Notes under the pieces: model-generated | What the model was told of the DNA's origin: nothing | Seen by the model: only the letters and a program-made list of their open reading frames with translations | Databases searched by the model: none | Program-made: the position numbers and the translations under genes | Assembly (NCBI GenBank): GCA_018985235.1 | Contig: JADGIG010000050.1 | Span: 1 to 31,136, forward strand | Direction: 5' to 3' | Length of the DNA stretch: 31,136 nt | From: Sanchytrium tribonematis | Lineage: Eukaryota > Sanchytriomycota > Sanchytriomycetes > Sanchytriales > Sanchytriaceae | Shown here: positions 22,059-26,383 of the stretch, in pieces | How the letters are laid out: each line of letters opens with the position of its first letter | Numbering within the stretch: the stretch's first letter is position 1

Positions 22059-23778
22059 ATGTACTTTACTTTTATTTTCGGGTTGACTTGTGTACCAAGT
22101 ACCTGTAATGATCAAGAAAATCCGCCTTGTATCTCTTTCAAAGCTACCCTAAGGAATTTTCCTCAACACGCAATGGAATTCGAAGCTCCATTAGGCAGTG
22201 ATTATCGAAACTATCCATTATTAAACTCTACCCTTATGGACGAGCGACCAACATTTATTCCGTCTCATTTGAGAGCCTCTTTATATTATGGAAACACAAA
22301 ATTATCAAAAAATGCGGCTGTTGTGAACTATGGAAAATTTTTATTTGATCAGTACTTTATGGATGTCCCCAGGCTAAATATCCCGCAAGTAATCAATATC
22401 AATCTTACTAAGAGAAACAACGGTTTGTACATGTACGATAGTAATGAAAATAAGCCGGTGGGATTCTTTCCCTTGGATAAGTTTGGTTATTCAGAAGAAT
22501 ATATGGGACAATTTGGACATAAATTTTGGTTTACCACCCACATCAATTATCCTTTTTATTATCGTGGCAATGAGACATTTTCATTTAGTGGTGATGATGA
22601 TTTGTTTATTTTTTTAAACAAAACATTGGTCTGTGATTTGGGCGGAATTCATCCTCGTTTGGAATGTACAATCAATTTAAACACTCTTAACCTAATGAAA
22701 AATACAAAATACTCATTTGATGTTTATCATGCAGAAAGACATTCGAGTGGTAGTAATTTTAAAGTCACGACTAGCATCCTCCCTCGAAATGTGGCACCAG
22801 TCAGTGAAGATATCCAAGTGACAGTATCTGGTCCTAGTAACAATATTATTAAACTGCCTTTATTTGATGCAAATGATGATGATATGACAGTGACCATTAA
22901 ACCACCATATCCACAATTCGGTAAAATTTTGATTGAAAACAAGACAATTGACGTTAGCTACAACGGTTCTTTACCAGCCGTATCTAGAAATACTTTAAAT
23001 TATATCGCCAATGACATTGCATTTGGATTACAAGGCTTTGACACAATTTTCTATACAATTAAAGATCATTGTGTTGAATCTCAATTATATTCTGTGGATG
23101 TCACTGTAGTTGGTACTGTTCGCACAATTGTGAAATATGCACCTATTGTTAGAGATCCAATTCAAATAATATTGGATAGAGGCGAGTTGATTTCAATTAA
23201 TATTACAGCATGGGATATGTTAAATTATACTTTATATTACTTGGATGATAGCCTTTATCGTGATTTATGGATTGAGTGTATCAACGTTGTAAATTTGAAT
23301 CAAACGACTGGGATTTTGACCGTTCAGGGTATATCTGGATCATGTAATTATACTTATCTAGTTAGCAACAAAGTATTTGATCCTCCAAGTCGCGGCAGAA
23401 TAGAATTTCTGATAAGACCACCAATCCCAGATCCACCTGCTACTCAAATTATTGAGGTTTATCAAACAGAATCTGTGGTGATTAATGTGGATGATAATCA
23501 CACAACCCGTTATTTCATCTAATGTAGTTTCTAATGTCACTGTTGGTTTTGCAGTTAGTGGAACTTTCGTACTAATAATAGCTGGTGCTTTAATAGCATG
23601 GATCGTCTATAGCAGATTTTTGTGGAGTAAATTTGAGGCTAAATGGAGAAAAGAAATTTTGAGTGCGGAAATTAAAGAAAATCCACTTTACGCGCCAATG
23701 AGCAAGGAAACATTCAATCCTTTATACGAAAGTGGCACAACCATAACAAAATCGCACCAAACTGTTGTTAATAAATAA
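22059..23778 (+). CDS. Fibro-slime domain type I membrane adhesin with integrin-beta-like tail (two exons)
   Basis: Join 22059-23508 and 23528-23778, 566 aa. Signal peptide (about 1-13); fibro-slime domain (about 25-240) with GHKFWFTTHI, SFSGDDDLFIFLN, VCDLGGIH and YHAERHSSGSNFKV; then cadherin/VCBS-like beta repeats (about 245-470) with many N-glycosylation sequons. A Gly-containing membrane segment (about 489-511) precedes a cytosolic tail with SKFEAKW (517-523) and two NPLY motifs (535-538, 547-550) spaced 12 residues apart. The KFE-AKW region plus two NPxY motifs at this spacing is the layout of integrin-beta tails, which bind talin and related FERM proteins. No VWA or I-like domain is seen. 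Without splicing the ORF stops at 23522 and loses the membrane anchor. AATAAA immediately precedes the stop. Confidence 0.85.
23509..23527 (+). other. Predicted 19-nt spliceosomal intron
   Basis: GTTATTTCATCTAATGTAG. Removing it joins ACA-ACC-C to TT-TCT-AAT in phase 1, removes the in-frame TAA at 23520-23522 and continues into the membrane segment and cytosolic tail. Same length as the intron in the subtilase gene, with the shared pattern GTNATTTNNNNTNATNTAG. Confidence 0.75.
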
Positions 23779-25088: not shown

Positions 25089-25161
25089 GCCTTTATAGCT
25101 CAGTTGGTAGAGCGCTGCACTTGTAATGCAGAGGTCTGTAGTTCAAATCTGCATGGAGGCA
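25089..25161 (+). tRNA. tRNA-Thr(TGT)
   Basis: A full cloverleaf without intron. Acceptor GCCTTTA pairs with TGGAGGC, with two G-T pairs; D stem GCTC/GAGC; anticodon stem CTGCA/TGCAG; loop CTTGTAA with anticodon TGT at 25122-25124; T stem TGTAG/CTGCA with TTCAAAT loop; discriminator A at 25161. Internal A box (TAGCTCAGTTGG) and B box (GTTCAAATC) are present, and a TTTT terminator follows at 25162-25165. Decodes ACA (and probably other ACN codons). Confidence 0.97.
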
Positions 25162-25353: not shown

Positions 25354-26383
25354 ATGATGTTGTATCCATTGATATTTGCAGAATATATCGTACAATTTCG
25401 ACCAGATGCAAATGTTGAGGCAGATATTGTTATTGGTAATTTTAAAGCTTCCTTAGTAAAATCCAAAATTAAATACAGAAAAGACAAGCGAGTCTTAAGA
25501 ATAGATCCCAATGTTCCAATTGGATTGGGAATGCTTGACGGTACACAGGTCCGTCCAGTATGGAATTTGGACAGGATAGATCAAAGACGTGGCTTGGACC
25601 AGATTTACAAATATAGCGATAATGCTGGAGAGGGAGTTGTGGTATATATCATAGATTCTGGTGCTAACGTGAAGCACCAAGATTTAGTTGGAAGAATAAC
25701 TTTTGGTGTAGATACTACCAACGAAGGTTTGAAAGATACTGTTGGTCACGGTACTCACGTTGCGGGAATTATTGGTGGAAAAACTTTTGGCGTTGCCAAA
25801 AAGGCCGAATTAGTCGCTGTGAAAGTGCTCAGTTCCGGTGGTGGCACTGAATATACATTTTTAAAGGGACTGGAATGGGCTGTCAAGGACATGCAACAAA
25901 AAAAGAAAAAAGCGGTTGCAAACATTAGTATAGCTGCACCAAACCTGAAAAGCCTGAGTGATGCAGTTTCTGAAGCTATGAGATTAGGTTTGGTTGTGGT
26001 GGCGAGCGCTGGAAACAAAAATGCAGACGCTTGTTTACAAAGTCCAGCATCTATTCCAGGTGTAATTACAGTGGCCTCTTCTAGTTTTCGAGATCAAATT
26101 TCAGCTTTCTCAAATTACGGTAAGTGCGTGACAATATTTGCACCGGGAGAAAATATATTTTCCGCTGATGCCTTTTCGAATTCAGGCACAGTAGAAATGA
26201 GCGGGACCTCTATGGCAGCACCGCATGTGGTAATTTTGATTTATTTAGAGTGGGGTAGCCGCCATTTATTTAAGCATGGGTGTAGCAAATATTAAAGATG
26301 CAATCTTTCGAAAAGGCTCAACAGTAGTGGTAAACGGCCAACCAGATACAACCAATAGACTTGTATATAACAATCCTTATTAA
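25354..26383 (+). CDS. Proteinase K-like subtilisin serine protease (two exons)
   Basis: Join 25354-26229 and 26249-26383, 336 aa. S8 protease, predicted secreted. Very short leader (MMLYPLIFA), a reduced I9-type propeptide starting EYIVQFRPD (about 10-18), and a catalytic domain from about residue 65 (QVRPVWNLDRIDQR, like the mature start of proteinase K). Catalytic Asp101 (YIIDSG), His132 (GHGTHVAG), oxyanion Asn221 (SAGN) and Ser286 (SGTSMAAPHV) are all present, so it should be active. Exon 2 supplies the missing end: SGVAAIYLSMG follows PHV, and DTTNRLVYNNPY matches the family C-terminus. Without splicing the ORF runs out of frame after PHV and ends at 26295. The second in-frame ATG (25357) is equally possible as start. 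Stop TAA overlaps AATAAA. Confidence 0.92.
26230..26248 (+). other. Predicted 19-nt spliceosomal intron
   Basis: GTAATTTTGATTTATTTAG, phase 0 between GTG (Val of GTSMAAPHV) and AGT. Removal gives PHV-SGVAAIYL, the invariant subtilase helix, and 44 further codons to a natural C-terminus. This is the stronger of the two intron calls because the protein family is so well conserved across the junction. Confidence 0.85.

Follow-up and report, generated by a model that had tools for sequence, protein, structure and literature searches.

Uniformly tiny spliceosomal introns have been described in several distant groups of eukaryotes. In the ciliate Stentor coeruleus, the introns measure 15–16 nt, are bounded by GU–AG and most commonly start with GUAAUUUU, the branch adenosine mostly occupies position 10 of 15 or position 11 of 16, and the recognition sequences of U1, U2 and U6 are standard, whereas the branching factor Cwc25 is reported to lack a conserved motif (PMC9505925). 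Mikrocytos mackini harbors 224 introns in 179 genes, which are 16–17 nt long with a conserved sequence (PMC10245619), and chlorarachniophyte nucleomorphs possess introns of 18–23 nt, with 19 nt being the commonest length (70.3%) in Bigelowiella natans (PMC4494063). The microsporidian Encephalitozoon cuniculi carries introns of 22–76 nt with strict motifs (PMC3629993). The earlier note on the DNA studied here had listed chlorarachniophyte nucleomorphs and heterotrich ciliates as the groups with such introns; both belong on the list, to which the mikrocytids, with 16–17 nt, have to be added (PMC10245619). Its remark that introns of this size are not known from fungi agrees with the open-licence PMC papers and passages covered, where the shortest introns found for a fungal relative span 22–76 nt (PMC3629993) and no introns below 20 nt are reported for any fungus, sanchytrids included.

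Here, 19 bases that interrupt a subtilase gene are almost certainly a U2-type intron cut from the subtilase pre-mRNA, and one member of a genome-wide class of introns (19 nt, with a minority of 20 nt) in a probable sanchytrid fungus; splicing at positions 26230–26248 is what we infer from the DNA sequence.

Structure of the Subtilase Gene and Its 19-nt Interruption

The window, which is the whole 31,136-nt stretch of DNA analysed (contig C258), contains on its plus strand a subtilase (Peptidase_S8) gene, whose exon 1 extends from the ATG at 25354 to 26229, ends with ...GTSMAAPHV and matches Pfam PF00082 (E 5.4e-39, profile positions 1–246). A tRNA-Thr (TGT) is located just upstream of this gene, at window positions 25089–25161. 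The unspliced ORF continues from GTSMAAPHV into VILIYLEWG... and reaches a stop at 26295, and the Peptidase_S8 profile match stops at position 246 of 288, the last residue of exon 1, so that the loss of subtilase homology directly after GTSMAAPHV, as claimed in the earlier note, was confirmed with coordinates and sequence exact. The frame opened at 26249 reads SGVAAIYLSMGVANIKDAIFRKGSTVVVNGQPDTTNRLVYNNPY followed by a stop. Exon 2 occupies 26249–26383 of the plus strand (SGVAAIYL...YNNPY, stop TAA), where it is delimited by the reading frame and by alignment to the homologue P0003, and its frame runs from SGVAAIYL to DTTNRLVYNNPY before the stop. Between the exons lies the phase-0 intron GTAATTTTGATTTATTTAG (26230–26248, plus strand, 19 nt), which is identified by its exact sequence, the homologue alignment and its membership of the genome-wide class.

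P0003, the nearest other protein with 62% identity overall, is uninterrupted and was used as the reference for the junction, with the two subtilase exons aligned to it as separate pieces. Exon 1 (25354–26229) covers residues 1–294 of P0003 with 63% identity, and exon 2 (26249–26380) starts at residue 295 with 59% identity (E 2e-13); with 44 residues, exon 2 is too short for a Pfam match of its own, and its alignment score against P0003 is 123, as compared with 42 for the top of 500 shuffles. Eight frame-compatible GT–AG pairs were found in the stretch scanned near the junction, three of which share the acceptor and would define introns of 19, 22 and 58 nt. The 22-nt and 58-nt donors were ruled out, as both cut residues that are kept in P0003. 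The boundary is fixed at 19 nt because the exons meet exactly at residues 294/295 of P0003 and the rival donors lose residues, and the earlier expectation that excision of exactly 26230–26248 restores the subtilase C-terminus is borne out by this abutment. The proposal of a 19-nt GT–AG intron of spliceosomal type is likewise strongly supported, by the junction together with the genome-wide class.

Other Subtilases and a Second Candidate in the Window

The genome (G000) displays 15 Peptidase_S8 matches on 13 contigs, which are many subtilase genes for a small genome; 11 of the 15 reach beyond profile position 246, and two end exactly there, namely the window gene and a second subtilase, L026, on contig C55. 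In L026, the sequence GTATTTCTAAATAATTTAG follows directly after the residue at profile position 246, and the junction, ...GTSMASPFV|AGVAAVMLS, is identical in site and phase to that of the window subtilase. Exon 2 of L026 matched no Pfam family and did not match P0003 (E 1.5), and its best score against the window exon 2 was 29 over nine residues, which is within the range of the shuffles (best 35). It is possible, judging by exon 1 and with little weight from exon 2, that the intron site is common to the window subtilase and this paralogue; if so, the site would be older than the paralogue split, and the intron sequence would have diverged since. A metagenomic subtilase, P0004 (44% identical), terminates with GTSMAAPHVVFYYLM, a protein end that could be explained by a short intron in a relative at the equivalent site.

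A second 19-nt intron candidate, GTTATTTCATCTAATGTAG, is located in the window at 23509–23527 of the plus strand, with the branch motif CTAAT and its A at position 14. It would join exon 1 of a PA14-domain protein (22059–23508, plus strand, 483 codons; PA14 at the curated cut-off, E 3.6e-05) to an exon 2 (23528–23778, plus strand) that is delimited by its ORF and encodes a hydrophobic segment, read by eye as membrane-associated, and a short tail before the stop. The 5' splice site of this candidate begins with GTT, and the case, which comes from ORF joining, is weaker than that of the subtilase. Retention of 23509–23527 would omit the putative membrane anchor of the PA14 protein.

Genome-Wide Distribution and Length of the Introns

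The searched genome comprises 6,336,753 bases in 311 contigs. The window 19-mer with up to three mismatches matched the genome 172 times and its reversed control 26 times, and a looser 19-nt pattern, GTANNNNNNRYTNAYNTAG, yielded 413 against 107, which corresponds to a surplus of about 300 sites over the control, spread over many contigs of the genome part searched. The view of the window intron as an isolated case was rejected on finding this class. A variable-length pattern, GTAWN{1,26}RYTNAYTTAG, spanning 15–40 nt, gave 374 matches in total against 424 for its reversed control, so that there is no overall surplus and the length peak alone stands out: among the first 100 of the 374 matches listed, which represent contigs C1–C78 in order and were not hand-picked, 58 measure 19 nt, 11 measure 20 nt and two measure 18 nt; none has 21 nt, and every other length between 15 and 40 nt is represented at most four times.

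Similar length distributions were observed when reading frames were considered. In 249,238 bases, GT–AG pairs 14–90 nt apart were scanned for those linking two long ORFs such that retention would break the frame; at 19 nt, 42 GT–AG joins were found, whereas the six dinucleotide pairs that served as controls gave 18, 8, 13, 7, 12 and 11, and across the other lengths from 14 to 90 nt there was no clear GT–AG surplus over the controls, with 88 nt as a possible exception. The 88-nt joins are slightly high (35 against 9–31 in the controls), which may be accidental or point to a few introns of a longer class. When the 3' motif TNAY..AG was demanded in addition (258,969 bases), 35 joins of 19 nt were found, with two of 20 nt, one of 18 nt, one of 21 nt and 0–4 for each other length between 15 and 30 nt. 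Sixteen of these 35 joins, including L026 5672 and L027 9660, either represent the original finding or prompted the selection of their locus, and the remaining 19 do neither; among the latter, L021 2960 also appears in the mismatch-search listing, its locus having been selected for another match. There may be an avoidance of intron lengths that are multiples of three. The genome-wide peak at 19 nt, foreseen in the earlier note for spliced alignments, is present in these DNA-level length counts.

Restored Reading Frames in Unrelated Genes

Fifteen exon pairs, out of 29 candidates listed, were given to Pfam with their exons kept apart. In six of the 15 pairs, a single Pfam domain is continuous across the gap in exact register, the split codon being counted: Cation_ATPase_C (profile positions 99 to 103), ABC2_membrane (157 to 160, at the third residue), RasGEF (152 to 154), Chitin_synth_2 (487 to 489) and the PI3_PI4_kinase domain of TOR (197 to 201), each across a 19-nt gap; and Cation_efflux (151 to 153) across a gap of 20 nt. 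The exons of four further pairs carry domains that belong together, such as Cation_efflux with ZT_dimer, Peptidase_S8 with P_proprotein, TFIIB with BRF1, and two parts of an ABC protein; and five of the 15 pairs were uninformative by Pfam. In two of these five, L020 and the minus strand of L021, exon 2 showed weak Pfam matches, none of them a continuation of the domain in exon 1, and a comparison of TCF25 with solved structures gave no match. Joining the split codons also yields conserved residues: G|TA of TOR gives the valine that is found in all eight other TORs compared, and AC|C of chitin synthase gives a threonine at a position holding S or T in 5/5 relatives compared.

Intron Anatomy and Splicing Machinery

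The introns follow the consensus GTA(A/T)TTTT, then RYTNAY at positions 10–15, then (T)TAG. The search pattern itself prescribed GTA, RYTNAY and TAG; it did not prescribe the T-rich stretch at positions 5–8 or the missing G at +5. The consensus was drawn from 99 of the 100 places listed among the 413 looser-pattern matches, and none of these 99 listed 19-mers has G at +5. A second set comprises 33 of the 42 ORF-joined 19-mers, which were picked by eye for carrying the motif, so the invariance of T12 and A14 in this set is partly a matter of choice. The branch-motif adenosine occupies position 14 of the 19-mers and position 15 of the 20-mers, 5 nt from the 3' end in both, which implies a variable spacer upstream and a constant distance from branch to 3' end. 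In the window subtilase, the 5' splice site GTAATT lies at 26230–26235, without G at +5 as in the class survey of 19-mers; the putative branch site ATTTAT, a form of RYTNAY, lies at 26239–26244, its presumed branch A being nucleotide 26243, position 14 of the intron; and the 3' splice site TAG, evident from the sequence and the class consensus, lies at 26246–26248, all on the plus strand. The earlier objection that such an intron has no room for a conventional separate branch site and polypyrimidine tract did not hold for the branch site, as RYTNAY is found at intron positions 10–15 with A at 14 and a T-rich stretch upstream.

Components of a U2-type machinery were detected in the same genome, including a U2 snRNA (115.9 bits, over the cut-off) with intact GUAGUA; a U6 snRNA (61.8 bits, over the cut-off) with ACAGAGA; a U1 candidate whose 5' end, AUACUUACCU, would face the 5' splice site (43.7 bits, which falls short of the 69.5 required for the family); and the U6-binding domain of Prp8 (E 3.1e-84, over the cut-off). 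U4, U5 and the SF1-HH domain found no match in the genome part searched, and no control genome matched either; the searched genome seems to be without small contigs, none below 10,011 being present among 20 contigs listed, and given this probable missing part and the silent controls, these misses are not evidence of loss. A G at +5 is the normal pairing partner of U1 and U6. It is missing from the introns although the 5' end of the U1 candidate and the ACAGAGA box of U6 are canonical.

The anatomy and the machinery also bear on other explanations of the gaps. If the gaps were passed by translational bypassing or frameshifting, all 19 bases would be kept in the mRNA and ribosomes would hop over them, for which the byp elements of some yeast mitochondria offer a precedent, and the gaps are indeed short, uniform and frame-shifting; it is very improbable here, as GT...AG ends and a branch-like motif whose A keeps a constant distance of 5 nt to the end are what splicing, not hopping, predicts, and as the genes concerned are nuclear and U2, U6 and U1-like snRNAs are present in the genome. 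Equally little credit is due to the idea that the 19-mers are IES-like elements or short repeats removed at the DNA level, or assembly artefacts of single-cell amplification, since the surplus of about 300 sites on many contigs displays common GT–AG ends and an internal motif. Ciliate IESs have TA boundaries, and the 19-mers are without them. What speaks for artefacts is that the published sanchytrid genomes were obtained from amplified single sporangia (PMC8371127). Least credible of all is a decayed subtilase pseudogene with a chance frameshift, in keeping with the direct ORF being without homology after PHV, because exon 2 is 59% identical to P0003 beginning exactly at the next residue and similar gaps interrupt other conserved genes, TOR kinase and chitin synthase among them.

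Under spliceosomal removal, the preferred reading, all splice signals would be packed into one composite motif, with GTA(A/T)T(T) at positions 1–6, the T-rich stretch at 5–8, RYTNAY at 10–15 with its A at 14 (15 in 20-mers), and TTAG at the end. U1, and then U6, would pair with positions 1–6, and U2 would pair around A14, reading positions 10–15, which would leave three bases only between the two duplexes; branching at A14 and ligation at AG19 would follow, likely through ordinary two-step splicing. As 19 and 20 are not multiples of three, retention would always shift the frame.

Gene Position, Turnover and Host Lineage

The 3' half of the gene holds 21 of 23 motif-defined 19-nt introns with both exons of at least 60 codons (binomial p 7e-5), a count covering loci L001–L029 plus the window, where some loci were fetched for a match and introns in the first codons would escape the scan. 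In intron-poor genomes a 5' bias is usual, the opposite of the 3' bias observed here. Relatives read through several of the intron sites, such as P0124 and P0125 at the TOR site; P0244–P0246 at the chitin synthase site; and P0003 at the subtilase site. EukProt relatives were called as ORFs, so read-through means that there is no intron at that site; for the ENA relatives, which may have been called differently, it need not. By these protein comparisons, the presence of the 19-nt introns seems to vary among close relatives, and the phylogenies fit a gain in this genome as well as a loss in the others.

In trees built from 23 rows for TOR and 9 rows for chitin synthase, the host groups with metagenomic relatives and another EukProt assembly; their clade has a long stem and lies near Blastocladiomycota, although long-branch and letter make-up warnings leave the deep placement unsure. 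EukProt includes the two sanchytrids. The sanchytrid genome paper likewise describes the sanchytrids as long-stemmed and near Blastocladiomycota, with GC contents of 34.64% for Sanchytrium tribonematis and 36.27% for Amoeboradix gromovi (PMC8371127); the GC of the genome analysed here is 35.0% (258,969 bases). The host is very probably a sanchytrid, and probably S. tribonematis. The published sanchytrid proteins are uninterrupted ORFs from contigs, derived with SPAdes and TransDecoder, and in the paper's main text the word 'intron' occurs once, in a reference title (PMC8371127). The public EukProt TOR (P0122) and chitin synthase (P0243) continue into the 19-nt intron and then stop, because this proteome was called as uninterrupted ORFs. 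Gene models that ignore the 19-nt introns are truncated, which may bear on the numbers of genes and the losses of domains that have been published.

Comparison with Known Tiny-Intron Systems and Significance

The length feature that defines uniform tiny-intron systems, i.e., introns below about 25 nt within a narrow range genome-wide, is observed here at the DNA level. Features in common with Stentor are uniform tiny GU–AG introns, the GUAAUUUU start, a branch A, putative here, that lies 5 nt from the 3' end (in Stentor mostly so), and standard recognition sequences of U1 (a candidate here), U2 and U6 (PMC9505925). The two differ in length (15–16 nt against 19–20 nt here) and in host (a ciliate against a fungus); Stentor shows no strong branch consensus, whereas RYTNAY is recognisable here, and it possesses thousands of introns against probably a few hundred here (PMC9505925). 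The mikrocytids share a low-GC parasite genome with a few hundred introns of nearly one length (PMC10245619), but their introns measure 16 nt against 19 nt here, and they belong to Rhizaria, not Fungi. As in Bigelowiella natans, 19 nt is the commonest length; nucleomorphs, in contrast, are relict endosymbiont nuclei of algal origin with 1.6–3.2 introns per gene, where U1 is reported missing in three genomes and U4 in all (PMC4494063), whereas a U1 candidate is present here. Encephalitozoon cuniculi resembles the present case as a fungal-side parasite having short introns with strict motifs (PMC3629993), and differs in that its introns are longer and variable in length, those found here being almost uniform at 19–20 nt.

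A wider interpretation, which we offer as speculative and consider rather unlikely as a whole, is that splicing as a whole has been reorganised, in a zoosporic parasitic fungus, around one 19-nt composite module, converging on the Stentor geometry (GUAAUUUU start, no +5 G, branch A 5 nt from the 3' end) with canonical U1, U2 and U6 recognition sequences; the introns, being mostly 3' and turning over between relatives, may have been gained recently, and retaining them could serve to switch C-termini, as in a PA14 protein made without its hydrophobic anchor.

Taken at its own level, the class of 19-nt introns suggests that this fungus has shrunk its introns to near the smallest size known, like a few unrelated protists. 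Introns of this uniform, tiny kind would then have arisen independently in Fungi, a kingdom in which splicing is well understood both genetically and structurally. The distance of 5 nt from the branch point to the 3' splice site, common to Stentor and this fungus, suggests that the lower limit of intron length is set by this distance and not by lineage.
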